A stretch of DNA of 64,000 bases. Source: Microbacterium capsulatum. Lineage in GTDB: Bacteria > Actinomycetota > Actinomycetes > Actinomycetales > Microbacteriaceae. The notes under the pieces are model-generated. The model was given only the letters and a program-made list of their open reading frames with translations, made no database searches and was not told where the DNA came from. This document shows, one piece after another, positions 3,798-32,233 of the stretch (its first letter is position 1; each line of letters opens with the position of its first letter). Position numbers and translations under genes: made by a program. Where the stretch lies: NCBI RefSeq assembly GCF_030865425.1, contig NZ_JAVFCB010000009.1, forward strand, positions 1 through 64,000. Reading direction: 5' to 3'.

Positions 3798-4847
3798 TCA
3801 GTAGAACTCGACAGTGTCGACGACGTTGCGCAATGGCCGGCCGTCGAGGAATCGGGTGGCGTTCTCGGCGAACAACTCCGCGATGCGGCGGTCCTCTCGC
3901 GCATCCAGCGCCGCGGTGTGCGGGCTCACCAGCACCCGTGGATGCGCCCACAGCGGGCTGTCCTCGGGCAGCGGCTCCACCTCGAACACGTCCAGCGCGG
4001 CGAATCCGACGACGTCGCGGTTCAGGGCGTCGAGCAGCGCGCTCTCATCGATGACCGTGCCTCGGCCGACGTTCACGACCGTCGCGCCCTGCTTCAGCAC
4101 GGACAGGAACTCCCGCCCGATCAGGTGATACGTGGCGTCCGTGCCGGGCAGCGTGGTCACGACCGCATCCACGTGCGGGAGTACCTCCGTCGCCGCATCC
4201 GGATGGATCGTGCGCGCGACGCCCGGGACCGCTGCCCCACGGCGCGACGTGCCGATGACCGTGACGCCGAGCGCGGACAGCTTCGCCGCCACCATGGCGC
4301 CAATCCCGCCCAACCCGAGCACCAGCACGGTCTGGTCGGACACCTGCCCCATCATCCAGCGCCCGCTCCACACCCGCTCCCGCTGCTGCTCCAGCAACCG
4401 AGGCAGATGCTTCGCGCCCGCGAACACTCCGAACACGGCGAACTCCGCCAGCGCGTCTCCATGCACACCCGCCGACGTCGTGAACACGACGCGCTCCAGC
4501 TCGGCCGCCGTCAGTTGCGCGCCACGCACCTGACCACCACCCCCCGCAGCCATCGTGTGCACCCACCGCAACCGCGGATTCGCGCGCACCACCCGGGCCA
4601 GCGCACCCGGATCCACATCCGGGATGCCGTACAGCACGTCCGCGGTAACCAACAGCTCCTCATACGCGGCCTGCTGCTCGGACGTGCGCCGGAACGACGG
4701 ATCCCCCGAGAAGTCCGCCGGATGCCGCATCGGCGGAAGCAGCGACTGATCCACGGCCAGATCGATCCGCGGCTCGAGGACTGTGAGCAGCTCGCACAGC
4801 TCGGGAGCCAGCGGCGCAGCCACCGCCACCCGCAGCCGCCCGGTCAT
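3798..4847 (-). CDS. D-2-hydroxyacid dehydrogenase
   Basis: NAD(P)-dependent reductase of the 2-hydroxyacid family, 349 aa. It has the Rossmann motif GLGGIGA, the catalytic Arg in NVGRGTVIDE, the Glu in DVFEVEPLP and the His in SPHTAALD. Substrate cannot be read from the sequence. In this operon a 2-keto sugar acid such as 2-ketogluconate would fit, reduced to gluconate for GntK; that is inference. The ATG at 4847 overlaps the upstream aminotransferase stop by 4 bp, so the long upstream extension in the same frame is not used. A second, only distantly similar family member lies at 38706-39731. Confidence 0.88.
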   Translation of the reverse strand: MTGRLRVAVAAPLAPELCELLTVLEPRIDLAVDQSLLPPMRHPADFSGDPSFRRTSEQQAAYEELLVTADVLYGIPDVDPGALARVVRANPRLRWVHTMAAGGGGQVRGAQLTAAELERVVFTTSAGVHGDALAEFAVFGVFAGAKHLPRLLEQQRERVWSGRWMMGQVSDQTVLVLGLGGIGAMVAAKLSALGVTVIGTSRRGAAVPGVARTIHPDAATEVLPHVDAVVTTLPGTDATYHLIGREFLSVLKQGATVVNVGRGTVIDESALLDALNRDVVGFAALDVFEVEPLPEDSPLWAHPRVLVSPHTAALDAREDRRIAELFAENATRFLDGRPLRNVVDTVEFY

Positions 4848-6067
4848 CGGAGGGCTCCGACGGCCTCGGCGATCGCGTCGATCGCCTCGGTGATCGTATC
4901 GATGTCGGTCGCGAACGAGATCCGGAAGAACGGCGACTGCCCGTAGGCGGAGCCCTGGATGACGGCGACGCCGACGTGGTCCAGGAGGTACAGCGTCACG
5001 TCCTGATCGTTCTCGAGGATACGGTCGTCCGGAGTGCTCCTGCCGATGAGTCCTGCGCAGTCGACGTAGAGGTAGAAGGCGCCGTCGGGAACGAGAGGGG
5101 TCACGCCGTCGATGGCTGCGAGGCCGGCCACGGCGGCGTCGCGGCGCGCCCGGTACACGGGAACGGATTCGGCGATGAAGTCCTGCGGTCCCTGCAGCGC
5201 TGCGGCGGCGGCCGCCTGGCTGATCGACGACGGGCAGGACGAGGTCTGGGACTGCAGCGTGTTGATCGCACCGATCAGCGCGGAATCGCCCGCCGCGTAG
5301 CCGAGGCGCCATCCGGTCATCGCATACGACTTGGAGACGCCCGACACCACGAGCACGCGGTGGCGCAGGTCCGGGGCGACGGCCGCGAGGCTCGGAGCAG
5401 GCGAGCCGGTGAACGAGATCTCGCTGTAGATCTCGTCGGAGAGCACGGAGACCCCCGGATGCCGGCGCAGCACGTCAGCCAGCGCCGAGAGCTCCTCGGC
5501 GGTGTAGATCGCGCCGCTCGGATTTCCCGGGCTGTTCAGGATCAGCCAGGTCGTGCGGTCTGTGATGGCGGCCTCGAGCTGCTCCGGCGTGAGTTTGTAT
5601 CCTGACTCCGCGGTGGTCGGGACGATCACGGGAGTGCCCTCGTTCGCGCGCACCATGTCGGGGTAGGAGACCCAGTAGGGAGCCGGGATCAGCACGTCGT
5701 CGCCGACGTCCACCGTGGCCATCAGGGCGAGGAAGATGACCTGCTTGCCTCCGCCGCCGACGGTGATCTCGGCGTCCGAGTACTCGATGCCGTGGGTGCG
5801 CTGCAGCGAGCCTCGAATCGCCTGTCGCAGCCGCGGGGTGCCGTTCACGGGGGTGTACTTGGTCTCCCCCGCCCGGATCGCGGCGATCGCCGCTTCCTTG
5901 ATGCGCTCCGGGGTGTCGAAATCCGGCTCCCCGACCGTGAGATCGAGGATGCGACGTCCAGCTGCCTTCAGCTCTCGTACGCGTGCGGCTGCGGCGGTGC
6001 TCGGTGACGGCTTGATGCGGCCGAGTCGCGCCGCCGGGCGGAAGGAAGATGCCGGGGTGTCGCTCAC
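4844..6067 (-). CDS. class I/II pyridoxal phosphate-dependent aminotransferase (AspC-like)
   Basis: A 407-aa fold-type I aminotransferase. It shows VGEPDFDTP, the YTPVNGTPRLR stretch, NSPGNPSGA, the PLP-contacting SDEIYSE, and the Schiff-base lysine K246 in GVSKSYAMTGWR. These match the aspartate/aromatic aminotransferase Iγ group. Start is GTG at 6067, which overlaps the aldolase stop (GTGA). An amino donor or acceptor is not predictable. Its place inside a sugar-acid operon next to oxoprolinase-like genes suggests that the substrate being degraded carries an amino group, which is inference. Confidence 0.88.
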   Translation of the reverse strand: MSDTPASSFRPAARLGRIKPSPSTAAAARVRELKAAGRRILDLTVGEPDFDTPERIKEAAIAAIRAGETKYTPVNGTPRLRQAIRGSLQRTHGIEYSDAEITVGGGGKQVIFLALMATVDVGDDVLIPAPYWVSYPDMVRANEGTPVIVPTTAESGYKLTPEQLEAAITDRTTWLILNSPGNPSGAIYTAEELSALADVLRRHPGVSVLSDEIYSEISFTGSPAPSLAAVAPDLRHRVLVVSGVSKSYAMTGWRLGYAAGDSALIGAINTLQSQTSSCPSSISQAAAAAALQGPQDFIAESVPVYRARRDAAVAGLAAIDGVTPLVPDGAFYLYVDCAGLIGRSTPDDRILENDQDVTLYLLDHVGVAVIQGSAYGQSPFFRISFATDIDTITEAIDAIAEAVGALR

Positions 6068-6750
6068 GACGCGTCCTCGATGTCGGTGGTCAGACCCTTG
6101 GCCTTCAGCACCTCGGTGAGATTGCACAGCTCGATGGTGGTTCCGCCGGCCCAGTACTTCTTGATCAGCTCGGCCTCGTGCGCATCGCGTGCCGCGGAGA
6201 GTTCGGCGGCCGCGCTGACCTCCTCCCGCCGCACCACGACCACGCCGTCGGCATCGCCCTTGACGATGTCGCCCGGCCGGATGTACTCGCCGCCGAACAC
6301 CACCGGCTGGTTGAGCGCCCCCAGCGTCTCCTTCACTGTGCCCTTGATCGAGACGCTCCCGGAGAACACCGGAAGACCGAGCTCGCGCAGCTCCTGCGTG
6401 TCGCGGACCCCGGAGTCGGTGACGAGAGCGGCGATCCCCTTCGCCTTGCACGCGTTGCCGAGTACGTCGCCGAACATCCCGGCCTCGGCGAACCCGCCGG
6501 CGGCGACGATCAGCACGTCGCCGGGCTGCGCGTAGTGGATCGCTACCTGGAGCATGAGATTGTCGCGCGGCGCACAGACGACCGTGAACGCGGATCCGAT
6601 GAATGAGGTGTCCCGGTCGATCGGCTTGATGTTCGAGTCGAGCGCGCCGTGACGGCCCTGCGCCTCGTGGATGGTTGCGGCGCTGAACGCGCCGAGACGT
6701 GCGATGTCGGACGCGTCGGCCCGCTCGATCCTGGTGGTGACGTGAACCAT
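6064..6750 (-). CDS. RraA-family aldolase (4-hydroxy-4-methyl-2-oxoglutarate / oxaloacetate-type)
   Basis: A 228-aa RraA-like protein. The family includes class II pyruvate aldolases and oxaloacetate decarboxylases as well as RNase E regulators. The aldolase-associated stretches are visible: GDVLIVAAGG, the VTDSGVRDTQEL loop with the Arg-Asp pair used for metal/pyruvate binding, and GDIVKGDADGVVVV. Given the metabolic neighbours, a retro-aldol or decarboxylase reaction releasing pyruvate is more likely than RNA-enzyme regulation. The ATG at 6750 lies 10 bp downstream of the SDR stop; its own stop overlaps the aminotransferase GTG. Confidence 0.82.
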   Translation of the reverse strand: MVHVTTRIERADASDIARLGAFSAATIHEAQGRHGALDSNIKPIDRDTSFIGSAFTVVCAPRDNLMLQVAIHYAQPGDVLIVAAGGFAEAGMFGDVLGNACKAKGIAALVTDSGVRDTQELRELGLPVFSGSVSIKGTVKETLGALNQPVVFGGEYIRPGDIVKGDADGVVVVRREEVSAAAELSAARDAHEAELIKKYWAGGTTIELCNLTEVLKAKGLTTDIEDAS

Positions 6751-6760
6751 GAGGTGTCCT

Positions 6761-7522
6761 TTACTCGGCGTCCTGCGCCCGGCGGTCGAAGGTGAGACCG
6801 CCGGGCACCTGGAAGGTGGGCATGAGCTCGATGAGCCCGACGTTGACGTGGACGGGAGCGTCCACGGCGAATGCGATGGCCGCGACGATGTCATCGACCG
6901 TGAGCGACTCGTATCCCTCGTAGAACTCGGCCCAGGCGGCGGCGTCCGTCTCCGGGGTGCCGCCGAGATTGCGCGAGAAGATCTCGGTCTCGATGCGCCC
7001 GGGGCTGAGCTCCGTGACCCGGACCCGCTTTCCGAGCGCATCGTTGCGCAACTGGCGGGAGAGCTGGTGCACCGCGGCCTTCGTCGCGTGATACGCGGTG
7101 TGGCCGAAGAAGTTGTAATGCCCTGCGATCGAGGAGATGTTGAGCACGTGACCTCGATCGCGCAGCACCATTCCCGGGTAGAGGAGGCGGAGGATCTGCA
7201 TCACCGCGGTGAGGTTCACCTCGATGAGATCGTCCAGATCTTCGGCCGACGAGCTCAGGATGTTCCCCGCGCGACTCACCCCGGCGCTGTTGAGCACGAT
7301 GTCCGCCTCAACACCTTCGAGCTCGCGGGTGAGGGCTGCCGTGTCGCGCACGTCGAGCGCGTGGGTGATCACGCCCTTCTCCGCGAGCGCCGCGAGGCGC
7401 GACTCGTCACGGGCGATGGCGTGAACGGTGAGCCCCTTCTCGAGGAAGAGGTCGATCGCACCACGGCCCACGCCGCTCGTCGCGCCAGTGACGACCGCGA
7501 CACGGTAGTCGGAGAAAGTCAT
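6761..7522 (-). CDS. SDR family oxidoreductase (YdfG/serine dehydrogenase-like)
   Basis: A 253-aa short-chain dehydrogenase with TGATSGVG (residues 12-19), NSAGVSRAG, and catalytic S131, Y144 and K148 in ISSIAGHYNFFGHTAYHATK. The ELSPGRIETE stretch and overall length resemble the NADP-dependent 3-hydroxy acid dehydrogenase group. Its start overlaps the pxpC stop by 4 bp. It is distinct from IdnO in the same operon and probably acts on another intermediate. Substrate is not predictable. Confidence 0.88.
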   Translation of the reverse strand: MTFSDYRVAVVTGATSGVGRGAIDLFLEKGLTVHAIARDESRLAALAEKGVITHALDVRDTAALTRELEGVEADIVLNSAGVSRAGNILSSSAEDLDDLIEVNLTAVMQILRLLYPGMVLRDRGHVLNISSIAGHYNFFGHTAYHATKAAVHQLSRQLRNDALGKRVRVTELSPGRIETEIFSRNLGGTPETDAAAWAEFYEGYESLTVDDIVAAIAFAVDAPVHVNVGLIELMPTFQVPGGLTFDRRAQDAE

Positions 7523-21784: not shown

Positions 21785-22990
21785 ATGACAACGATCGTGC
21801 ATGCCGCGGGCGCCGCCGAGCTGCTCGCCGCCATCCCCGTCCTGACCGGATTCACGCCGCGGAACTCCCTCGTGCTGCTGCCGTTCCGTGCGTCCCGGAC
21901 CGCCGGAGCGCTGCGCTTCGACCTGCCCGGCCCGCCCGGCGACGACGCTCCGACCCCGTCGGTGGAGGAGTTCGCCGCGACCGCGATCGGGCTCGCCTGC
22001 CGCGTCCCGGACACGGATGCGCTCGCGATCGCCGTGTACGCGGACGGCGTCGGGGCGGGAACCGGCTCCGAGCCGCCGGCCGATCATCTGCCACCCGACC
22101 CGCTGCTGCCGGCGGATCATTTGCCGGCGGCCGCGCTGCCGGCGGCCGAGCTCGTCGCGGAGCTGGTGCGGCGTGCGGACGCGTGCGGGCTGCGGATCGT
22201 CGAGGCCCTGCACATCGGCGCGGACGCGTGGACGGACTACCTCGATCCGTCCGCTCCCCCGCACCCGATCGCCGACGTGCCGGCCGCGCCCGAGGTTCCG
22301 GGCTTCGCCGGTCCCGCCCCGGACCAGATCAGCGGCGCGGAATTGCCGGCGCCGGGCCTGTTCGCGGCGGAGAAGGTGGGACGCGCGCTGCTCGCCGTCG
22401 AGCGGGTGCTCGGACCGGCCGCCCTGAGCCGGGCCGTCCCGTCGAGCGCCGGGCCGGTGGATCCGCAGGCGCACGGGATCGCCCTCGCGCTGGACGACCT
22501 GCCGGCGTTCCTCGACGAGGTGCTCGACGCCCCGGAGGCGCAGTCGCCGTTCGCGACGGCCGCGCTGGTCTGGATCCTGAACCGTCCCGCACTCCGCGAC
22601 GTGGCGCTCGTGCAGTGGGCGCGGAGCATCGACGAGGGCGACGCGGCGCTCGCCGCCCAGCTCTCCTTCGGCGCGGCCGGGACCGCGGTCCCCGAGAGCA
22701 TCGGCGAGACGATGATCGGCCGCGGCCCCCGCCCGGACGCCGATCGGCTCGGCGTGGCCCTGACCCTCGTCCGCCGCACGATCGCGCTCGCGCCCCGCGC
22801 GGTCCGCGGGGGTCCGCTCGCGGCCGCGGCTTGGCTGGCCTGGGCGACCGGCCGCTCGACGCACGCGGCGCACTACCTCGATCTGCTGGACGAGGTCGAC
22901 GCCGAGCTGTCGTTCGGGCACCTGCTGCGCGCGATCGTCGACGCCGGCATGCTGCCGGACTGGGCGTTCGGGAAGGCCAGGGCGGCATGA
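21785..22990 (+). CDS. DUF4192 family protein
   Basis: A 401-aa actinobacterial protein with the DUF4192 opening AAELLAAIPVLTGFTPRNSLVLL, and the C-terminal WLAWATGRSTHAAHYLDL that resembles the family's end. Function is unknown. The ATG at 21785 follows an AGGGTGG site; a GTG three codons upstream is an alternative. It is convergent with the nucleoside hydrolase gene, leaving 14 bp between them. Confidence 0.85.
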   Translation: MTTIVHAAGAAELLAAIPVLTGFTPRNSLVLLPFRASRTAGALRFDLPGPPGDDAPTPSVEEFAATAIGLACRVPDTDALAIAVYADGVGAGTGSEPPADHLPPDPLLPADHLPAAALPAAELVAELVRRADACGLRIVEALHIGADAWTDYLDPSAPPHPIADVPAAPEVPGFAGPAPDQISGAELPAPGLFAAEKVGRALLAVERVLGPAALSRAVPSSAGPVDPQAHGIALALDDLPAFLDEVLDAPEAQSPFATAALVWILNRPALRDVALVQWARSIDEGDAALAAQLSFGAAGTAVPESIGETMIGRGPRPDADRLGVALTLVRRTIALAPRAVRGGPLAAAAWLAWATGRSTHAAHYLDLLDEVDAELSFGHLLRAIVDAGMLPDWAFGKARAA

Positions 22991-23004: not shown

Positions 23005-23985
23005 TCACGCCAAGGAACGCCTGGACATCTCCTCGAAGGCCCGCAGCATGACGGCGAGCACGGCATCCACGTCCACGTCTCGGACCACCTGCGCGTTCGC
23101 CCCCGCAGCCCCGGCCCCCGAGACCCACCGCGGAACGGTCATCCCCCGCGTGTGCTCGCCCCGCAGCTCGATCTCGACCGTGGCGGCGCGGAGTTCCTGC
23201 CGCACGTCGCGACCGGCCGCGATCACCGCGGCGAGGGGGTCGTGCAGCGGCGCGACCGCGCGGCCGACCTCGCGCGCGTGGTAGTCGAAGTAGTGACCGA
23301 GCGCGTCATCCAGGAAGCGCGAAACCGGACTCTCGCCGGTCATCCGACGGAGTTCGTCCAGGTGCTGCGGCGTCAGCAGGACGCGCTCCGTGATGTCCAG
23401 CCCGCACAGCACCGGGACGTGCCCGAGGTCGCGCCCGCGGTACGCGTCCAGGACCATCGCCGCGGCCTCCGGGTCGACGAAGATGTTCCACTCCGCGGTG
23501 CCGCCGACGTTGCCGCGGTGCTCGAACGCCCCGCCCATCACGACGAGCCCGCGCAGGAGCTCCGGCAGGCGCGGCTCCAGCCGCAGCGCGAGCGCGATGT
23601 TGGTGAGCGGGCCGGTGACCAGGCCGACGATCTCCCCCGGATGCGCCCGCACCGCGTCGATCCACAGCTCGGCCGCGGAGCGCGGATCGAGGGACCGGGA
23701 CGACGCGGCCAGCCGCGCGTGCCCGAGGCCGCTCTCGCCGTGCACCGCATCCGCCGCGGCGAACGGCTGCACCAGCGGGAGCGCGGCGCCGCGCGCGACG
23801 GGGATGTCGGTCGCGCCGAGAAGGTCGAGCACGGCCAGGGTGTTCCGCACGACGTGGTCCACGCCGACATTGCCTGCCGTGCAGGCGATGCCGACGAGGT
23901 CGACGTCCTCCTGCGCGAGGAGGTAGACGAGGGCGACCGCATCGTCGATGCCGGTGTCGGCGTCGAGCAGGATCCGCGTCGTCAC
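23005..23985 (-). CDS. inosine/uridine-preferring nucleoside hydrolase family protein
   Basis: A 326-aa nucleoside hydrolase that would split an N-ribosyl bond to free base and ribose. The calcium site DADTGIDD (D8, D10, D14, D15) is present, with TAGNVGVDH, VTGPLTNIALAL, GGAF and a late HDPLAAV aspartate. It is the last gene of the ECF transporter operon; its GTG overlaps the M24 gene. In this setting it would process an imported ribosylated compound, with ribose passed to the PfkB kinase. The actual substrate is not predictable. Confidence 0.9.
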   Translation of the reverse strand: MTTRILLDADTGIDDAVALVYLLAQEDVDLVGIACTAGNVGVDHVVRNTLAVLDLLGATDIPVARGAALPLVQPFAAADAVHGESGLGHARLAASSRSLDPRSAAELWIDAVRAHPGEIVGLVTGPLTNIALALRLEPRLPELLRGLVVMGGAFEHRGNVGGTAEWNIFVDPEAAAMVLDAYRGRDLGHVPVLCGLDITERVLLTPQHLDELRRMTGESPVSRFLDDALGHYFDYHAREVGRAVAPLHDPLAAVIAAGRDVRQELRAATVEIELRGEHTRGMTVPRWVSGAGAAGANAQVVRDVDVDAVLAVMLRAFEEMSRRSLA

Positions 23986-24656
23986 GAGATGACCGTGCAG
24001 CGCGTGGGTCCGAACCAGACGACGTCCTCGCGCTTCACCCCGTACAGGCGGTTGCCGATGAACGGCTCCACCGCCCAGGCTCCGCGCATGACCGTCTCGT
24101 TGCTCGCATCGATGTATCCGTCGTCGTACGAGGAGTTCGCCGTGAGGGAATGGCCGATGTTGCTGAGGCGGTCCAGAAGGACGTACGGGGTCCGAGAGAG
24201 CTCCTCGGCGAACACCCCGAACCAGTCGCAGGCGCGCATGCCCGGTCGCGCGGCCGCGAGCACGGCCGCGTGGATGCTCTCGATCGTCGCCAGCGCCTCC
24301 TTCTGCGCGTGATTCTCCCCGACGAGGAAGCTGCGCGTGCAGTCGCCCCACCAGCCGCCCTCGGTGACGGGGTGGACGTCGATCATCCCCAGATCGAGGT
24401 TCCACAGCGCACGATCACTCGGCACGTCGGTCGGGTAGCAGCTGAGGGTGCCCGCGCCGAAGCCGACGGTGGTCGCGGTCCAGACCCCGAGAGCGCCTTC
24501 CTCGATGACCATCCGATCGACGATCCGATGCAGCTCGCGCTCGGTCTGGCCCGGGTGCGCGGCCTGCGCCGCACGCTCGGCCACCCGGATCGCGATCCGC
24601 TGGGCCTCGACGAGGCCCGCGGGCGGCTCGTCGGAGATCTCCTCGTTCCCGGTCAT
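23982..24656 (-). CDS. M24 (methionine aminopeptidase/creatinase-fold) family protein
   Basis: A compact 224-aa pita-bread-fold protein without the N-terminal creatinase domain. All five metal ligand positions seem present: D in NLDLGM, D in GDCTRSF, H in NIGHSL, E in AVEPFIG and E in KREDVVWF. It lacks a typical MetAP N-terminus, so a C-N bond hydrolase for a small amide is an alternative to a peptidase. It overlaps both operon neighbours by 4 bp. The ATG at 24656 is chosen over an upstream frame start because of that overlap. Confidence 0.78.
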   Translation of the reverse strand: MTGNEEISDEPPAGLVEAQRIAIRVAERAAQAAHPGQTERELHRIVDRMVIEEGALGVWTATTVGFGAGTLSCYPTDVPSDRALWNLDLGMIDVHPVTEGGWWGDCTRSFLVGENHAQKEALATIESIHAAVLAAARPGMRACDWFGVFAEELSRTPYVLLDRLSNIGHSLTANSSYDDGYIDASNETVMRGAWAVEPFIGNRLYGVKREDVVWFGPTRCTVIS

Positions 24657-25444
24657 GCGCGTGCGTCCTCTCCGGCGAGCCAGCCGATCATGCTCTGCCA
24701 GATCCGGTCGAAGCCCTCCCACTCGAGGAAGACGGGCGGCAGCCAGTGCGGTCCCATGTCGGTGGCGAAGGCGGCCGTCCGGCCTTCCCCAGCGGAGCCG
24801 ACGATGAAGAGCGGACGCCCGTCGACGGTCATCAGCACCTCCGATCCCGGTCGGGGCAGCAGCCGCTGGTAGCCGAGGATCGGCGGCAGTTCCGACGGCA
24901 GGCCGGCCACCGCCGGGTGTCCGGGCAGGACGCGCGGCGCGATGCCCTGCGGGGTCTCCTCGCGGTCGTCACCGACCTCCATCAGCACCGGCAGCACCTC
25001 GGCGAGCGCGGTGTTGCGATAGTTCGCCTTGGCCTCTATCCCCTGGAAGCTGAGGTATCCGCCGACCATGAGCAGGGATCCCCCGCCGCGGACCCACTCC
25101 GCGAGCAGCGCGAGCCGATCCGGCATGCTCCGCCCGCGGGAGAACACGCTCGCCGGCAGCAGCAGCGTGTTGGCGCCGATGTCGCTGAGCACCACGACGT
25201 CGTATGCCGAGAGCTCCGCGAGGGTCGTCGGGAACCGATCCGCCGCCACGTGGTTCGGCAGGAAGTCGACCGTGTGGCCCGCCGCCTCGAGAGCCCGGAT
25301 GAACGGCCAGGCGCCCTCCTCGTAGCTGGAGGTGAAGAAGGAGTCGAACCCCTTCGTGTGCACCGAGGTGGTCGACCAGGACTCCCCGGCGAGAAGCACC
25401 CTCGTGCCCGCGGGGCTCTGCGGCGCGTCGGCCGTCGTCGCCAT
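24653..25444 (-). CDS. glutamine amidotransferase-like protein (PF07090-type)
   Basis: A 263-aa class I GATase-fold protein with VLLAGESWSTTSVHTKG at the N-terminus, VVVLSDIGANTLLLP, GGSLLMVGGYLSFQG, and ATDMGPHWLPP near the end. I see no Cys at the usual nucleophile elbow (GGYLSF in place of a G-x-C-x-G elbow), so classic glutaminase activity is unlikely. The family is poorly characterised and often sits near carbohydrate genes. It lies 3 bp after the BtpA gene and overlaps the M24 gene. Confidence 0.75.
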   Translation of the reverse strand: MATTADAPQSPAGTRVLLAGESWSTTSVHTKGFDSFFTSSYEEGAWPFIRALEAAGHTVDFLPNHVAADRFPTTLAELSAYDVVVLSDIGANTLLLPASVFSRGRSMPDRLALLAEWVRGGGSLLMVGGYLSFQGIEAKANYRNTALAEVLPVLMEVGDDREETPQGIAPRVLPGHPAVAGLPSELPPILGYQRLLPRPGSEVLMTVDGRPLFIVGSAGEGRTAAFATDMGPHWLPPVFLEWEGFDRIWQSMIGWLAGEDARA

Positions 25445-25447
25445 CGG

Positions 25448-26191
25448 TCAGACCCTCGCCGGCAGCGCGCGCAGCGCGGCGATGAAGGCGGCGACGTTCT
25501 CCGCCGAGACGTCACCCGTGTCGGCCAGCGTGTCCTTCAACGCGCTCCCGATGATGACGCCGTCGGCCTCGGCGAGCTGATCGGCGACGTTCTGCGGCGT
25601 CACGCCGGCCCCGATGATGAGCGGGAACCCGTCGCCGACGACCTCGCGGAACTCCGCCGTCTTCTCCAGCGGGGTGAGCAGTCCGGTCCCCTCGCCGGTG
25701 ACGACGATCGCGTCGCACCGCTGGACTCCGAGCTCCAGATCCTCTCGGAGCGACCGGCCGGAGAGGTACGGCTGGTACTTGAACCGCACGCCTCCGAAGA
25801 CGAGCGCGTCGGTCGCCGCGCGCGCCGTCGCGAGCCGCTCGGCGAAGACCGCGTCCTCGTCCGGGGGCAGGTGCCCGGCCACCGAGTCGAGCTGCAGGAA
25901 GGCCGCGCCGTACGCCTGCGCGAGCTCGAACGCCCGCCAGTCGTCTTTGAGGATGTTGATGCCGAAGACCGCGTCGGGCCGGGTGTCGCGAAGATGGTCG
26001 AGGACGGCGACGACGTCGTCGACGTCGCCGAAGTAGTTCTCCACGATGAACGCGTCCAGCCCGCTTCCGGCGAGCAGATCGATCTCGTGGCGCGCCCGGT
26101 CCAGACGGTCGGCGCGGTCCTCGCCCTTCAGGTGCAGCATCGCGAACGCCGGCTTCGCCGACGGGAACGCGGAACGGTAGTCAGTGGTCAT
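25448..26191 (-). CDS. BtpA/SgcQ family protein (TIM-barrel)
   Basis: A 247-aa BtpA-family protein. It has MLHLKGEDR, IVENYFGD, GINILKDD, QLDSVAGHL and the C-terminal GAGVTPQNVADQLAEADGVIIGSALK phosphate-binding-like turn of a TIM barrel. E. coli SgcQ belongs here; members occur in sugar or nucleoside operons without a proven reaction. A phosphosugar isomerase or aldolase role is plausible. The ATG at 26191 is chosen for its AGGCAGGA ribosome binding site over the in-frame ATG at 26209. Confidence 0.82.
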   Translation of the reverse strand: MTTDYRSAFPSAKPAFAMLHLKGEDRADRLDRARHEIDLLAGSGLDAFIVENYFGDVDDVVAVLDHLRDTRPDAVFGINILKDDWRAFELAQAYGAAFLQLDSVAGHLPPDEDAVFAERLATARAATDALVFGGVRFKYQPYLSGRSLREDLELGVQRCDAIVVTGEGTGLLTPLEKTAEFREVVGDGFPLIIGAGVTPQNVADQLAEADGVIIGSALKDTLADTGDVSAENVAAFIAALRALPARV

Positions 26192-26224
26192 CAGATCCTG
26201 CCTTCTCATGGGTTTCGGGTCGTA

Positions 26225-27019
26225 TCAGGGGATGACGCGGACGACATCGTCGACCGTGACCGCGTCGTCGGACAGGCCGAGATCCTTCGCGAGCTGCGCG
26301 GTCTCCAGGCGCCGGATCCGGGAGCGACGCAGCACGTCGTCGTCGCAGAACACGACGTCACGCGGGCCGTCCGCGATGACACCACCGTCGGCCATCGCCA
26401 CGACCCGGGAGAACGTGTCGACGACGAAGCGCATGTCGTGGGTGATCGTGACGACCGAGACGCCCTCGGCCTGCAGCCGGTCGAGCATCCGGGTGAGCTG
26501 GTCCAGGCCGTTGCTGTCCAGCCCGGCGGTCGGCTCGTCGAGGATCACGTACCGGCAGTCCGAGACCAGGATCGCGGCGATCGCCACGAACTTCCGCACG
26601 GCGGTCGGGAGGTCCTTCGGGTTCGTGTCCAGGTGGTCCTGGATCCCCGCGAGGTCGACGGCGCGCGCGATGCGCTCCTCGCGCTTGTGCTCGGGCCATT
26701 TCAGGTAGCGGGGCAGGTACTCGATCTCGGAGCGCACATCGGAGGCGAACAGCTGGTCGTCCGGGTTCTGGAAGACGTAGCCGACGACGCGGGCGGTCTC
26801 CGCGGTGGTCCGATCGGCGGTGCGGACGCCGTCCACGAGCACCTCGCCCGCCGTCGGCCGGAGCAGGCCGTTCATCATCTTCACCGTGGTCGTCTTGCCG
26901 GCGCCGTTCTGTCCGACGATCGCGACCCGTTCGCCGTCCTCGATGCGCAGATCCACCGATCCGACAGCGACGGTCCCGTCCGGGTAGGCGAAGCCCGCCC
27001 CGCGCAGCTCAATGGGCAC
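26225..27019 (-). CDS. ECF transporter ATPase A (degenerate ABC signature)
   Basis: A 264-aa EcfA-type ATPase that powers import with the T and S components. Walker A GQNGAGKT (36-43), the Q-loop glutamine Q84 in VFQNPDDQ, Walker B YVILDE (157-162) and the THD switch histidine are intact. The signature that should read LSGGQ is LPTAVRK (137-143), although the following FVAIAAIL is normal. This half therefore cannot complete the partner's ATP site in the standard way. It overlaps the second ATPase by 11 bp. Confidence 0.92.
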   Translation of the reverse strand: MPIELRGAGFAYPDGTVAVGSVDLRIEDGERVAIVGQNGAGKTTTVKMMNGLLRPTAGEVLVDGVRTADRTTAETARVVGYVFQNPDDQLFASDVRSEIEYLPRYLKWPEHKREERIARAVDLAGIQDHLDTNPKDLPTAVRKFVAIAAILVSDCRYVILDEPTAGLDSNGLDQLTRMLDRLQAEGVSVVTITHDMRFVVDTFSRVVAMADGGVIADGPRDVVFCDDDVLRRSRIRRLETAQLAKDLGLSDDAVTVDDVVRVIP

Positions 27020-27872
27020 GGCTCACCTCCTCGATCCTCGAAGCCACGGCGTGCGCGGCCTCGTCCCTGGTCATCGGCATGATGCCGATCCCCCGCCCGT
27101 CCTCCTGCAGCAGCCCGGCGAGTTCGGCGACCTCCGGCGGACGGACTCCGTACGAGCGAAGCTCTGCGGATCCCAGCACCTCGCGGGTCGGGCCGCTCAT
27201 CGCCGCACGTCCCCCGTGCATGACCGTCACCGTGTCCGCGTACGCGGCGAGGAGATCGATCTTGTGCTCCACCAGCACGATCGACTTCCCTCGGTCCTTC
27301 AGACCGTGGATGATCTCGAACACCTCCTCGGACGACTCGGGATCGAGCTGGGAGGTGGGTTCGTCGATCACGACGACGTCCGCGTCCATGGCGATGATGG
27401 AGGCGAAGGCGACCTTCTGCCGCTGTCCGCCCGAGAGCCCGTTCGGGTTCTTGTCCACGAGGCGTTCGATTCCCAGTTGCTCGACGACGCGACGCACCCG
27501 CTCGATGATCTCGTCGCGCGGCACTCCGAGGTTCTCCAGCCCGAGCGCGATCTCCTCGAACACGGTCTCGCGGATGCCGCTGATCTGCGTGAACGGGTTG
27601 TCGAAGACGCAGCCGATCGCGGTCGACAGTTCCGCGGGATCCCAGTCCTGCAGGTCCTTCCCGAGGATCTGCACCTGACCGGTCAGCTCCCCCTCGTGGA
27701 AGTGCGGGATGATGCCGCGCACGAGCGCGCAGAGCGTCGACTTGCCGCTCGCGTTGAGGCCGACGACGCCGTGCACCTTCCCCTCCTCCCATTCGAGGCT
27801 GAGGCCGTCCAGCGCCGGGCGCTCTGAGTAGGCGTACGTGAAGCGCACGTCCCGCAGCGTTGCTAGAACCAT
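27009..27872 (-). CDS. ECF transporter ATPase A' (altered Q-loop)
   Basis: A 287-aa EcfA'-type ATPase. Walker A GLNASGKST (38-46), the canonical signature LSGGQ (146-150) and Walker B with D170-E171 are intact, and EHK carries the switch histidine. The Q-loop glutamine is replaced by D91 (CVFDNPFTQ). With the degenerate signature of its partner, one of the two ATP sites looks non-canonical. The ATG at 27872 overlaps the T-component gene by 10 bp. Confidence 0.92.
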   Translation of the reverse strand: MVLATLRDVRFTYAYSERPALDGLSLEWEEGKVHGVVGLNASGKSTLCALVRGIIPHFHEGELTGQVQILGKDLQDWDPAELSTAIGCVFDNPFTQISGIRETVFEEIALGLENLGVPRDEIIERVRRVVEQLGIERLVDKNPNGLSGGQRQKVAFASIIAMDADVVVIDEPTSQLDPESSEEVFEIIHGLKDRGKSIVLVEHKIDLLAAYADTVTVMHGGRAAMSGPTREVLGSAELRSYGVRPPEVAELAGLLQEDGRGIGIMPMTRDEAAHAVASRIEEVSRAH

Positions 27873-28666
27873 CCGAGAACACCTCCGATCACTGCGGCGA
27901 CCGCCGCGAGCACGAGCAGGGTCAGCGCGCCCCACTCCCAGGGCCGGGTCCTGCGCAGCCGGACCAGCGAGGTGTGCGCACCCTCACGGTTGAAGGCCCG
28001 CGCATCGAGCGCGATCGCGCGCTCCTCGGTGGCGCTCATGGCAGAGAGGAACACCGGGGCGAGCACGGGGAAGAACGCGCGGACCCGCACGAGCGGGCTC
28101 CCCTCGGTCTCGATCCCGCGCGCCTTCTGCGCATCGAGCACCACCCGGGCCGTCGCGCCGAGGTCGGCGATCGACTGGAACGACGCGAGCAGGACGTAGC
28201 TGACCCGGGGGCTCACGCCGATGTGCTCGAGCGCGAGCATCAGATGCCGCATCGGGACGAGGGCGAAGAACAGGGTCGCGGCGGCGCAGATCGCCATGAC
28301 GACGGTGGCGAACCGCAGTCCCGCGTCGATGCCCGCGGTCGTGACCGAGATCGGTCCGAGCGGAACGAGCACGCGTCCGCCACGGGTGAGCAGGGCGCGC
28401 AGGACGAACAGGATCAGTCCGACGCCGGCCCACAGTTTGAGGAAGGTCATCAGGTAACTGCGCCCCTTGCCCCCGAGGAAGCCGACGAGGACGAACACCG
28501 CACCCGCGGCGAGCGGGATGATCCATCCCGGCGCAGCCACGCCGATCGCGGCCGTCGCGGCGATGCAGCCGAGCAGGATCAGCGGGTTCATGTCGCGGAT
28601 CGGGTTGCCCAGCGTCGCATCCGCGAGGTACCGCGCGGCAGCGGCGTCGAGTGCGGTGCTCGTCAT
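27863..28666 (-). CDS. ECF transporter T component
   Basis: A 267-aa transmembrane EcfT-like protein. Several N-terminal transmembrane helices are followed by the cytoplasmic coupling region with ALEHIGVSPRVSYVLLASFQS and an Ala-Arg-type coupling motif, QKARGIE. It links the two ATPases to the S component. It lies 1 bp from the S gene and overlaps ATPase A'. The complete S-T-A'-A set in one operon makes this a dedicated (group I) ECF system, by the usual definition. Confidence 0.9.
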   Translation of the reverse strand: MTSTALDAAAARYLADATLGNPIRDMNPLILLGCIAATAAIGVAAPGWIIPLAAGAVFVLVGFLGGKGRSYLMTFLKLWAGVGLILFVLRALLTRGGRVLVPLGPISVTTAGIDAGLRFATVVMAICAAATLFFALVPMRHLMLALEHIGVSPRVSYVLLASFQSIADLGATARVVLDAQKARGIETEGSPLVRVRAFFPVLAPVFLSAMSATEERAIALDARAFNREGAHTSLVRLRRTRPWEWGALTLLVLAAVAAVIGGVLGWF

Positions 28667-28667
28667 G

Positions 28668-29315
28668 TCAGCGCACTCCGGAACCGAGTCGGACGTCCGC
28701 GTCGGCCGGCGCCGAGAGGTACACGCGGCCCAGCGGGAGCTTGGTCATGAGACGCTTCGGGATCCCCTTGATGATCGCGTAGACGATCAGCACCGTGGGG
28801 ACCTTGTCGAGCACGTCCATCGGGATCTGCGCGACGAAGTTCGCGGTGTTCACGTCGAGTCCGAGAGCGGTGAGCATGCCGACGACGATGGCGCCGCCGC
28901 CGACCGCGAGGCCGCCGAACACCCAGATGGTGAGGAGCGCGCCGAAGAACCCGCCGATGAACGCGAACGGGATCGCGGTGAGCAGGGCCTTCCACCAGAC
29001 CTTGAAGAAGCCCCGGCGCCCGAAGAAGCCGGCGAGCAGACCGAACGCGACGTTCAGGACGGCGAAGGCGAACGTCGGCGGCGAGGTGATCGAGTTGATC
29101 GCGTTCGACAGCAGGCCGACGACGGCGCCGGGCAGGCCGCCGCAGAGGGCGCCCACGAGGATCGTGCCGATGCTGTCGAGGTAGATCGGCAGCTTGAGCA
29201 GCAACGCGATCTGCCCGCCGACGAAGTTGACGGCGACGCCGATCGGGATGAGGAAGATCGTCAGGCGGCCGTAGCCGCGGATGAGTGTCGAGAACCTGCT
29301 GCGGGAAGCCATCAT
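28668..29315 (-). CDS. ECF transporter S component (substrate unknown)
   Basis: A 215-aa membrane protein with about six transmembrane segments, expected to bind the transported micronutrient. It has KLPIYLDSIGTILVGALCGG, which resembles an S-component helix 1-2 region, and two Arg/Lys-rich cytoplasmic loops. I cannot assign it to a known vitamin family. The co-operonic nucleoside hydrolase and PfkB kinase suggest a ribosylated or sugar-like ligand, which is inference. Confidence 0.82.
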   Translation of the reverse strand: MMASRSRFSTLIRGYGRLTIFLIPIGVAVNFVGGQIALLLKLPIYLDSIGTILVGALCGGLPGAVVGLLSNAINSITSPPTFAFAVLNVAFGLLAGFFGRRGFFKVWWKALLTAIPFAFIGGFFGALLTIWVFGGLAVGGGAIVVGMLTALGLDVNTANFVAQIPMDVLDKVPTVLIVYAIIKGIPKRLMTKLPLGRVYLSAPADADVRLGSGVR

Positions 29316-29369
29316 CGGCGTCCTTTCTGTCCGGGCCGCCGTCGGGTGCGGCCGTGGGTTCCTCGCGGG

Positions 29370-30296
29370 CTAGGGGGTCCGCGCGGTGGATCGGCGGAAC
29401 GCGTCGACCGCGTCCCGGGTGGTGAGGCCTCCCCGCGCCCCGACCGTGCCGACGGCGAGGCTTGCCGCGGCGTTGGCGAACTCGGCGGCTTCGACGAGGT
29501 CGCCGCTGAGCGAGTAGGCGTAGAGGAAGGAGCTGGTGAACGTGTCCCCGGCGCCCGTGACGTCGACGACCTCCACGGGGATCCCCGGCACCTCGACGAT
29601 GCCTCCGGCGTGGTGCAGCTCGCATCCTTCGCTGTCGCGGGTGATGACGATCGCGGTCGCGCCCCCGTCGAGCAGGCGCGAGATGGACTGCCCCTCCTGC
29701 TCGAAGCGCGACGCACCGAGGGAGTTCATGAAGAGGATGTCGCAGTGCTCGAGGAGCCCGGATCCCTGGTTCTCCGCGTTGTAGACGTCCAGGTCGAGCA
29801 CCATCCGGGCGCCGCGACGGCGCAGCGATTCGAGGATCTCCGCCGGCCCCTGCGGCCCTCGCCGGAACGGCTTCACGTCGGTGAGCGTGCTGACGATGAA
29901 CTCGGCGTCCGCCATGTGCTCGAACGTGGCGGGGACGATCTCGGAGTGCGTGATCCCGAGCGTGGGGATGAGCACGATGTGCTGTTCCCCGTGCAGCAGG
30001 ATGATGCACTTCGAGTCCGGGACGTCCTCATCGAAGATCACGTGGCCGGTGTCGATGCCCTGCTCGCGCATCTGCCCGAGCAGCCTCTGCGTGAGCGGCC
30101 CCGAGTTGAGCTGGGAGATGAACGAGGTCGGCATCCCGAAGTGCGCGTAGATGGATGCGGCGTTGGCGACGCTGCCGCCGAACTGCGCCGGCAGCGTCTG
30201 GACGATGACCTTGTCGCCGGCCAGCGGGAAATGCGGTGTCGCGTAGTACTCGTCCTCCGCGACGTCCCCGAAGAACACGGAGTGCCGCGCCGTCAC
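29370..30296 (-). CDS. PfkB family carbohydrate kinase
   Basis: A 308-aa ribokinase-fold kinase. It has the N-terminal QFGGSVANAA motif and the C-terminal DVTGAGDTFTSSF with the catalytic Asp in GAGD. It would phosphorylate a sugar or nucleoside released by the cassette, for example ribose from the nucleoside hydrolase. The GTG at 30296 overlaps the LacI stop (GTGA), so it is co-transcribed with the regulator. A gap of 54 bp separates it from the S component. Confidence 0.9.
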   Translation of the reverse strand: MTARHSVFFGDVAEDEYYATPHFPLAGDKVIVQTLPAQFGGSVANAASIYAHFGMPTSFISQLNSGPLTQRLLGQMREQGIDTGHVIFDEDVPDSKCIILLHGEQHIVLIPTLGITHSEIVPATFEHMADAEFIVSTLTDVKPFRRGPQGPAEILESLRRRGARMVLDLDVYNAENQGSGLLEHCDILFMNSLGASRFEQEGQSISRLLDGGATAIVITRDSEGCELHHAGGIVEVPGIPVEVVDVTGAGDTFTSSFLYAYSLSGDLVEAAEFANAAASLAVGTVGARGGLTTRDAVDAFRRSTARTP

Positions 30297-31297
30297 CGCA
30301 CGGCCTCCGCCGTGGAGGACCGCACGATCAGCGTTACAGGGAGCACCGTGCGCTCCGGCGCGATCGGCTCCTTCGCCTCGACGGCGTCGAGGACCGCCTG
30401 CGCGGCCAGTCGGCCGAGGGCGTCGACGTCCTGCCGGACGGTCGTCAGCCGCGGAACGCTGTAGTGCCCCGAGGACATGTCGTCGAAGCCGACGACGGAC
30501 ACCTCGTCGGGCACGCCGATGCCGTGGGAGCGCAGCGCGTCGAGCGCACCGAGCGCCATGAGGTCGTTGTGGGCGAAGACCGCGGTCATGCCGCGCTCGC
30601 GCATCTCCGGTAGGTACCGCTCCACCGCGGCACGGCCGCCGTCGGCGGTGTAGTCGCCGCTCGTCGTCACGATCTCCCCGCCCGCCGCGATCCACGGCTG
30701 TGCGAAGCCGCGGCTCCGGTTCACGCTCGTGACGGGAAGCGGCGCCCCCTGGATCTCCAGCACGCGCCTATGCCCGAGCGCGAGGAGGTGCTCTGCGACG
30801 AGGCGGCCGCCCTCTTCGTTGTCCGAGATGACGGTGCGCAGCTCGACGCCCTCGAGCTCCTCGTCGACCATGACGACCGGGAGCCCGTGCGAGAGCGACG
30901 CGCGCGCGGTGATGCCGAGCGAGGCGCCGGAGGCGTACACGATCCCGTCCACGGCGCGGGAGGCGATCATCTCCAGGTAGCGCGCCTCCCTCTCCGCGTC
31001 GAAGCCGGTCGTCGCGAGCATCAGGTTGTAGCCGCGCTCGACGGCCTCCCGCTCCACGCTCTTGGCGAGCTCCGCGAAGTACTCGATGGCGATGTCGGGA
31101 ACGATGATCGCCAGGATGCCGGAGCGCCCGAGGGCCAGGTTCTGGGCGGCGCGGGTGGGGACGTAGTCCAGCTCCGCCATCGCGTTCAGAACCTTGTCCC
31201 GCAGCTCGTCGCTGACGCGGCGCTTCCCGCTGAGTGCGTGCGAGACCGTGGTCGGGCTCACCCCCGCGTGCCGGGCGACGTCGGAGATCGACACCAT
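30293..31297 (-). CDS. LacI-family transcriptional regulator, first gene of the ECF operon
   Basis: A 334-aa repressor. The HTH is SISDVARHAGVSPTTVSHALSG (residues 3-24), followed by the hinge and a periplasmic-binding-like sensor. The ATG at 31297 is chosen: a GAGGAGG site lies 9 bp upstream, whereas the GTG at 31303 would be only 3 bp from it. It is the leading gene of the 10-gene operon, so it probably regulates itself and the transporter through the sites at 31325-31352. Confidence 0.93.
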   Translation of the reverse strand: MVSISDVARHAGVSPTTVSHALSGKRRVSDELRDKVLNAMAELDYVPTRAAQNLALGRSGILAIIVPDIAIEYFAELAKSVEREAVERGYNLMLATTGFDAEREARYLEMIASRAVDGIVYASGASLGITARASLSHGLPVVMVDEELEGVELRTVISDNEEGGRLVAEHLLALGHRRVLEIQGAPLPVTSVNRSRGFAQPWIAAGGEIVTTSGDYTADGGRAAVERYLPEMRERGMTAVFAHNDLMALGALDALRSHGIGVPDEVSVVGFDDMSSGHYSVPRLTTVRQDVDALGRLAAQAVLDAVEAKEPIAPERTVLPVTLIVRSSTAEAVR

Positions 31298-31324: not shown

Positions 31325-31352
31325 TTGCAAATCGCTTTGGCAACCGCTTTGG
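31325..31352. promoter_or_regulatory. candidate LacI operators upstream of the ECF operon
   Basis: Two adjacent near-repeats, GCAAATCGCTTTGG and GCAACCGCTTTGG, lie 28-55 bp upstream of the lacI ATG. The first contains the palindrome CAAA-TCGC-TTTG, with a central CG typical of LacI sites. Autoregulation is inference. Confidence 0.55.
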
Positions 31353-31402: not shown

Positions 31403-32233
31403 TCAGGCGTTCGCCAGCAGCCAGCGCACGACCGCGTCGGTGTCGTGCCCCTCGAGCACGCCGGTGGCGCGCTCCTTGAGCTCCGGCACCGCGTTGCCGA
31501 CCGCGTAGGCCTCGTCGGCGAACTCGAACAGCGGCACGTCGTTGTGGTTGTCCCCGAACGCGACGATACGCTCGGCGTCCAGCCGCTCCGCGACCCGTCG
31601 GGCCCCGTCCGCCTTGGTCGCCGCACCCGAATGGATCTCCAGCCACCACTGGTCCGGGGTGTACGGGTCCGTCGAGACGAACACGGCGCAGTCGCGGGTC
31701 GCCTCCGTCAAGGCCGCGGCCAGGGCACGAACGGGATCCTCCCGCCCGATCACGACCGCGTAGTACGCGGAGTCGCGCTCGAGTTCCCGCCAGGACGCGA
31801 GCGGCCTCAGTCGCGGATCGCCGAGACGGTGATCGATGAAGAGGCGCACCCCGGCCGACTCGCTGCCGACGCGCCAGCGGATCCGCTCGGCACCGGACTC
31901 ATAGGTGTGGAACACCGGCTCGAGTTCCGGGTCGGAGGCGGTCGCCGCGCAGATCGCCCGCACGACGGCGTCGTCGAGGAGGGCGACGTCGAAGGGCCGG
32001 CCGCTTGTGCCATCGGCGATGATCGTGCCGCCGTACGTCACCACCGGGTGACGCCATCGGATTCCCGCCGTCGCCCGCGACGCCGACCCGAAGGATCGGG
32101 CAGTGGCGAAGGTGATCAGCGTCCCCCGCTCGCTCAGTTCGTTGATCCCCTGCACGGTGGCCGCGCTGGCGCGCGCATCCGCCATGAGCAGGGTGAAGTC
32201 GAGGTCGGTGACGTAGAGGGTCCGGCTGCTCAT
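31403..32233 (-). CDS. HAD-superfamily phosphatase (Cof/sugar-phosphatase type)
   Basis: A 276-aa HAD hydrolase. The nucleophile motif is VTDLDFTLL, threonine motif II is TFATARS, and the late FGDNHNDVPLFEFAD motif binds Mg2+. The cap resembles sucrose-phosphate phosphatase-like members. Substrate unknown. It is separate from the ECF operon (about 100 bp with the operator region between) and lies 21 bp downstream of lysS, so it may be transcribed with lysS. Confidence 0.88.
   Translation of the reverse strand: MSSRTLYVTDLDFTLLMADARASAATVQGINELSERGTLITFATARSFGSASRATAGIRWRHPVVTYGGTIIADGTSGRPFDVALLDDAVVRAICAATASDPELEPVFHTYESGAERIRWRVGSESAGVRLFIDHRLGDPRLRPLASWRELERDSAYYAVVIGREDPVRALAAALTEATRDCAVFVSTDPYTPDQWWLEIHSGAATKADGARRVAERLDAERIVAFGDNHNDVPLFEFADEAYAVGNAVPELKERATGVLEGHDTDAVVRWLLANA

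Follow-up and report, generated by a model that had tools for sequence, protein, structure and literature searches.

In Escherichia coli, fructoselysine is imported by FrlA and phosphorylated by the kinase FrlD before the deglycase FrlB acts, and in Salmonella the mannose-family phosphotransferase system (PTS) GfrABCD carries out both import and phosphorylation ahead of the deglycase, as these pathways are outlined in PMC12735817 and PMC12675984. We analyzed a 64,000-nucleotide stretch of Microbacterium capsulatum DNA (hereafter the window), which lies within contig 17 of a 3.99 Mb genome rated 100% complete and carries ten tightly packed minus-strand genes, extending from 31297 down to 23005, that form a candidate operon. 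One of them encodes a BtpA-family protein, and the gene exchanges observed around BtpA in other genomes point to a phosphorylated sugar compound, made by either a PfkB kinase or a PTS. Starting from a LacI-family regulator, the operon encodes a PfkB-family kinase, the S and T components and the two ATPases (A1 and A2) of an energy-coupling factor (ECF) importer, BtpA, a GATase-like protein, an M24-like protein and a nucleoside hydrolase, with consecutive genes overlapping by 4 to 11 bases or separated by 1 to 54 bases. The ten-gene operon proposed by the initial annotation was thus confirmed, all ten genes being on the minus strand and each of the named families being matched in Pfam or NCBIfam. 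Importer, kinase and enzyme are each of a known kind; their combination is new, and a literature search of CC-licensed PMC papers retrieved neither this gene set, nor an enzyme activity for BtpA/SgcQ, nor a paper dealing with fructoselysine together with BtpA.

The likeness to the Frl and Gfr systems, to the extent that they are described in the reports cited above, resides in the order of events: an importer and a kinase, or a mannose-type PTS that replaces both, come before an enzyme whose substrate is the phosphorylated conjugate. It extends to the importer itself, as FrlA-like permeases form a cluster found in five BtpA loci (the one permease that was scored reached 572 bits on the FrlA model, for a cut-off of 800, and 202 bits on the next model). 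The difference is that BtpA, a TIM barrel, occupies the position of the deglycase in BtpA loci, and that the window adds an ECF importer, a nucleoside hydrolase, an M24 protein and a GATase-like protein. Pseudouridine catabolism by PsuK and PsuG also involves a PfkB-family kinase followed by an enzyme that acts on the phosphorylated riboside. Our locus resembles it in that a PfkB kinase would precede an enzyme acting on a phosphorylated substrate, whereas no PsuG-like match was found among the ten window proteins using Pfam and NCBIfam, and BtpA is a TIM barrel. Finally, in the QueK-QrtT-QueL system of Clostridioides difficile, as in the window, the S component of an ECF importer is associated with a hydrolase plus one more enzyme (PMC11130926, PMC11477304). 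Unlike that system, which has a preQ1 riboswitch, the window operon is presumably under LacI and has its own T component and ATPases, a kinase and BtpA, in a genome devoid of tRNA-guanine transglycosylase (TGT).

To establish the distribution of this gene set, one genome per species was scanned across 84,980 species with the BtpA protein alone, which yielded 65 loci, a biased lower bound because they were drawn with short peptide patterns from one BtpA protein. Genes were grouped into clusters automatically by BLAST; gene calls in GC-rich loci relied on open frames and homology, so that the apparent lack of a small gene carries little weight. Ten of the 65 loci share the order LacI-PfkB-S-T-A1-A2-BtpA, with proteins 50 to 86% identical to those of the window; M24 is found in nine of these ten and the GATase-like gene in four. 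The ten loci belong to Actinomycetota (for example Agromyces, Micromonospora and Propionicimonas) and, for two of them (L030 and L031), to Pseudomonadota. An eleventh cassette of the same order (L094), from the family of the window itself, was recovered via its S component. Altogether, LacI, PfkB, S, T, A1, A2 and BtpA are each present in 12/12 cassettes, the window included, and M24 is present in 11 (one being cut off where its contig stops); six cassettes carry the GATase-like gene and four the nucleoside hydrolase (the window, L026, L082 and L094, the latter with two copies; the contigs of L027 and L039 end too early to tell). The gene set is therefore real and conserved, beyond chance. The ECF sets of Bacillota typically consist of GntR-S-T-A1-A2-BtpA and PfkB, to which several add a small protein weakly resembling ureidoglycolate lyase; such a protein lies near BtpA in 15/65 loci (for example L088:10784-11263), and the ten PTS loci described below all lack it. 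The BtpA subfamily is rare and patchy: within the genus, 2 of the 149 genomes contain a close copy (one at 60% identity), as do 1 of 396 genomes sampled from the order and 2 of 398 sampled from the phylum of L044, one of which is the L044 genome itself.

A PTS phosphorylates what it imports. Mannose-type PTS genes are present in 10/65 BtpA loci, none of which contains PfkB, either by cluster or by a more sensitive profile search, while PfkB occurs in 20/21 ECF loci by cluster and 21/21 by profile, the PfkB of L066 being divergent. As the cluster count overlooked divergent PfkB proteins (for example in L067), the count was redone with profiles, and some PfkB was then found in 46 of the 55 non-PTS loci. 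Fisher tests on the cluster counts gave p values for PfkB in PTS loci of 2.5e-7 against ECF loci and 3.0e-5 against all others, which are only indicative because the loci are related. In six of the ten PTS loci, BtpA is flanked on both sides by 8 kb or more, and the other four are on short contigs. Mapping the PTS label onto the BtpA tree requires five changes, at least three of them forced by starred branches, so the pattern of a PTS without PfkB recurs. Because PfkB is absent where a phosphorylating PTS is used, the substrate of BtpA is probably a phosphorylated sugar compound; most simply, BtpA needs such a substrate and receives it from either PfkB or the PTS. The conserved core is PfkB plus BtpA. 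Besides the FrlA-like permeases, ATP-binding cassette (ABC) importers of the amino-acid type with SBP_bac_3 (L036 and L045) and of the peptide type with SBP_bac_5 (L059) are found around BtpA. Importers of the amino-acid and peptide types suggest that a sugar-amine conjugate, and not a plain sugar, is taken up.

The BtpA protein (25448 to 26191, or from 26209, minus strand), a predicted phosphate-binding TIM barrel that we propose to be the key enzyme, exceeds the Pfam BtpA cut-off (72.8 bits for 30) and falls below that of the BtpA/SgcQ subfamily model TIGR00259 (72.4 bits for 153.4). BtpA/SgcQ proteins owe their names to a phenotype in cyanobacteria and to an E. coli operon that is uncharacterised. 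The predicted model of the window protein is a TIM barrel with a pLDDT (predicted local distance difference test) of 94.5, whose nearest folds are KDPGal aldolase (the best, Z 19.5), TrpA, HPS, RPE and TenI, all with Z scores of 17 to 19.5; differences in Z under 1 were treated as ties. A profile of a BtpA alignment of 56 sequences weakly matches TrpA and OMPDC over the C-terminal region (E values of 2e-4 to 4e-3). Other BtpA-like proteins, found in 3 of the 6 genomes that were searched, do not exceed 69.6 bits on this profile, compared with 349 to 385 bits for the subfamily of the window. The tree and the column counts were based on 63 rows, namely the window and 62 of the 65 loci (L046, which has a stop in its BtpA match, L074 and L086 were omitted), and the column counts revealed 32 invariant columns, including H20, E51, N79, Q100, D102, R136, K138, S216 and K219. 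In L044 (9938-11938), BtpA is fused to a protein that matches no Pfam family; the fusion partner is encoded on its own in L032, L036, L038, L041, L047 and L066 (50 to 57% identical) and, in pieces, in L087.

We tentatively favor, with somewhat less than even confidence, the interpretation that the operon serves the inducible import and breakdown of an amine that is glycated or ribosylated, BtpA carrying out a deglycase-like step. Such a compound is favored because of the types of importers and the Frl/Gfr-like exchange, and ribosides are included on account of the hydrolase and the S family. In the absence of the compound, LacI would keep the promoter shut at its conserved tandem operators, and S-T-A1-A2, whose family is well supported, would import a small sugar-amine compound of nucleoside-like shape. 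PfkB may then phosphorylate the sugar part of the imported compound, and BtpA would cleave or isomerise the phosphorylated conjugate into a central sugar phosphate and an amine, thereby taking the place of the deglycases FrlB, GfrE and GfrF of Amadori pathways, as suggested by the exchange of genes between loci. The nucleoside hydrolase could split those ribosides that arrive intact, the ribose then being used by ribokinases encoded elsewhere, and M24 and the cysteine-less GATase-like protein might perhaps process the aglycone. A broader and more doubtful proposal, which we nevertheless regard as possible, is that the BtpA subfamily constitutes an uncharacterised class of TIM-barrel deglycases or lyases for phosphorylated glycosyl-amines, at the core of a rare multi-phylum pathway in which at least five kinds of importers are swapped, the window being an ECF-fed version that also takes ribosides. 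If true, a reaction would be assigned to BtpA, a family of unknown function, ECF transporters would be added to the systems that take up sugar conjugates, and an ECF group in which the two ATPases are asymmetric would be described.

Several observations weigh against the catabolism of a glycated or ribosylated amine. No deglycase of the FrlB, GfrE or GfrF type was matched by Pfam or NCBIfam among the ten window proteins, and the nucleoside hydrolase fits an N-riboside better than a ketosamine. The rule of a kinase or a PTS is incomplete: nine non-PTS loci lack PfkB by profile and, although three of them (L046, L063 and L086) are on short contigs, the other six (L040, L056, L058, L072, L073 and L074) have room yet contain neither PfkB nor PTS. 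An ABC importer with SBP_bac_8 in L073 and a phosphodiesterase in L056 each adjoin BtpA. The PTS operons contain the PTS, a regulator and BtpA alone, an arrangement that also suits a plain rare sugar, and none of the 10 neighbour proteins sampled near PTS loci fits the missing enzyme. GATase-like genes are found near BtpA without nucleoside hydrolase in L057 and L059. Finally, the ligand of S may differ from that of its hydrolase-linked relatives because BtpA-linked S components form a clade of their own.

An alternative that we consider unlikely is plain nucleoside salvage, in which the ECF transporter imports a nucleoside, the hydrolase frees the ribose, PfkB converts it to ribose 5-phosphate, and BtpA, M24 and the GATase-like protein degrade an unusual base. 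The nucleoside hydrolase (23005 to 23985, minus strand; IU-NH, Pfam 304 bits) agrees with this scheme, as it retains the catalytic motifs DADTGIDD, VHGE, EWNIF and PLHDP in alignment with solved hydrolases and is the only match to its Pfam family in the genome. In addition, a nucleoside hydrolase lies close to CD3073-like S components in 8 of 11 regions outside BtpA loci (two of the eight in one genome), some of which also contain a ribokinase, a LacI-ribokinase fusion, a nucleoside phosphorylase or an amidohydrolase. Plain salvage accounts less well for the rest of the operon, given that the hydrolase is present in only 4/12 cassettes whereas PfkB and BtpA are in all 12, that Bacillota ECF sets contain PfkB and BtpA without a match to the hydrolase, and that PTS loci are devoid of PfkB. 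The kinase itself (29370 to 30296, minus strand, GTG start; Pfam PfkB 120 bits, GAGD motif) is far from ribokinases, with 92.1 bits on TIGR02152 for a cut-off of 299.65 and three relatives at 90, 107 and 115 bits. In L026 and L082 a second, ribokinase-like PfkB protein (281 and 277 bits) is encoded directly after the hydrolase, and the window genome encodes elsewhere two strong ribokinase homologues (267 and 218 bits, both under the cut-off). Ribose released by the hydrolase thus has other kinases available, so the operon PfkB probably has another substrate, and its assignment as a ribokinase serving the hydrolase is supported neither by score nor by the second kinase of L026 and L082. The uptake and salvage scheme of the initial annotation consequently holds in part: a dedicated ECF importer, a kinase and a hydrolase do co-occur in other genomes, the cassette order being kept in 10/65 loci and in L094, but the kinase does not appear to phosphorylate the sugar freed by the hydrolase, and salvage of queuosine, which it had mentioned among possible substrates, is excluded for this genome by the lack of TGT.

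A rare-sugar pathway, in which an uncommon sugar would be imported or released and phosphorylated by PfkB, BtpA being an aldolase or epimerase of the sugar phosphate, likewise strikes us as improbable, although the BtpA fold is best matched by KDPGal aldolase with HPS and RPE close behind, PfkB kinases are commonly paired with aldolases, and the closest solved structure to the kinase is that of sulfofructose kinase (7ag6, 66 bits). The operons made of PTS, regulator and BtpA alone also agree with a plain sugar; the FrlA-like, amino-acid and peptide importers around BtpA do not, and the nucleoside hydrolase and M24 would be left unexplained. KDPG aldolases have their active-site lysine on the sixth strand. 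We found no lysine by eye on strand six of the predicted BtpA model, and therefore rejected a KDPG-type class I aldolase despite the nearness of the fold, while retaining it as a rival. Salvage of queuosine or of another vitamin precursor appears very improbable. Its appeal comes from QueK-QrtT-QueL, in which a queuosine hydrolase and a lyase are described alongside the S component of an ECF importer (PMC11477304, PMC11130926); however, the pathway as described in these reports has no place for a PfkB kinase, and TGT had no match in the window genome using a search whose control was positive in 14/14 genomes, which excludes salvage of queuosine for use in tRNA in this genome, rated 100% complete. 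Moreover, the S component matches none of the vitamin or QueT models of Pfam and NCBIfam.

The S component (28668 to 29315, minus strand) scores under the cut-off of Pfam ECF_trnsprt (26.9 bits for 30.7), and its best model is the CD3073 S family NF045596 (105.6 bits), of which it appears from sequence to be a remote member, under the curated cut-off of 180. Its predicted model (pLDDT 84) has the fold of S components, with ThiT, FolT and RibU tied at the top (Z scores of 14.7 to 13.8, ThiT being at 14.7). Because of this tie, S was assigned to no single vitamin carrier, and vitamin transport was set aside since neither sequence nor model favors one vitamin family. A firm grouping of S with a known vitamin transporter, which would have refuted the initial annotation, was thus not observed. 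A profile of S searched against solved structures gave chance-level matches only. Beyond being the best match of the window S, the CD3073 family resembles it in having relatives with nucleoside hydrolase neighbours; it differs in that 22 BtpA-linked S components form a single clade separate from 11 CD3073-like ones (support 99/98). The tree omits two fragments from L066, in which S is split across two frames (6840-7467), perhaps by a frameshift or a sequencing error. Near another CD3073-like ECF set, in L092 (9517-11436), LacI and ribokinase (260 bits on the ribokinase model) share one open frame.

Together with S, the T component (27863 to 28666, Pfam CbiQ 67.7 bits) and the two ECF-type ATPases encoded on the same strand of the operon constitute a module of its own. 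ECF ATPases usually both carry a canonical ABC signature. Here, A1 (27009 to 27872, TIGR04520 208 bits for a cut-off of 315) has the canonical LSGGQ, which is kept in all of the 21 BtpA-linked sets, out of 23, that could be read by script, whereas A2 (26225 to 27019, TIGR04521 197 bits for a cut-off of 330) has the degenerate signature LPTAVRK; LSGGQ is found in 0/24 BtpA-linked A2 proteins, which have a P..xRKF type instead. One ATP site is therefore probably degenerate, which suggests an asymmetric ATPase pair in the BtpA-linked ECF group. The six related A2 proteins from outside BtpA loci that were readable by script also lack LSGGQ.

The first gene of the operon encodes the LacI-family regulator (30293 to 31297, minus strand; Pfam LacI 64 bits, Peripla_BP_3 117 bits). 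Upstream of LacI, two tandem palindromes of the LacI type, close to CAAANCGNTTTG and 13 bases apart, are present in 11/11 relatives with a LacI identity of 50% or more; two further LacI matches, 30% identical, are without tandem palindromes. The corresponding pair in the window, CCAAAGCGGTTGC / CCAAAGCGATTTGC (31327 to 31352, minus strand), has one T fewer, which reduces the spacing to 12 bases, and a TTGCGG-17-TATCGT promoter was recognized by eye directly 5′ of the operators. The exact tandem pattern has a single match genome-wide, at this promoter, and hence revealed no regulon beyond it, single operators not having been searched. LacI presumably controls this one operon and would be released by its substrate.

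Among the remaining operon proteins, the M24-fold metallohydrolase (23982 to 24656, minus strand; Pfam Peptidase_M24 72 bits) keeps the metal ligands D-D-H-E-E, as judged by eye on an alignment of 16 rows in which L027 is truncated. The GATase1_like protein (24653 to 25444, minus strand; PF07090, 312 bits) contains no cysteine, with a glycine at the nucleophile elbow in 8/8 aligned rows. Lacking the nucleophilic cysteine, it cannot be an ordinary amidotransferase, a role that was rejected. Upstream of the operon promoter, a Cof-type HAD-IIB phosphatase (31403 to 32233, minus strand), a possible accessory gene 105 bases from LacI, scores 91 bits on the NCBIfam Cof-subfamily model (cut-off 137) and 47.7 bits on HAD-SF-IIB (cut-off 41.8); it comes after an apparent lysyl-tRNA synthetase gene recognized by eye, and its relatives are encoded after M24 in L025 (48%) and at the end of the operon in L094 (40%). 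On the other side, the downstream neighbour gene is convergent and ends at 22990.

Other BtpA loci display additional associations. In L081 (2326-4775), a second BtpA protein (29% identical) lies beside a protein of the AIR-synthase family with an FGAR-AT linker domain, with PfkB, M24 and nucleoside hydrolase nearby. In L072 (11409-16951), a second BtpA is adjacent to an ornithine-cyclodeaminase-like protein, a nucleoside hydrolase and two M24 proteins; apart from the ornithine-cyclodeaminase-like protein, these are also present in L040 and L074. The PTS-BtpA operon of L075 is preceded (4535-7212) by VanW-like, D-Ala-D-Ala ligase-like and VanY-like genes, and a frame adjoining BtpA in L041 (919-2097) matches ADP-ribosyltransferase families.

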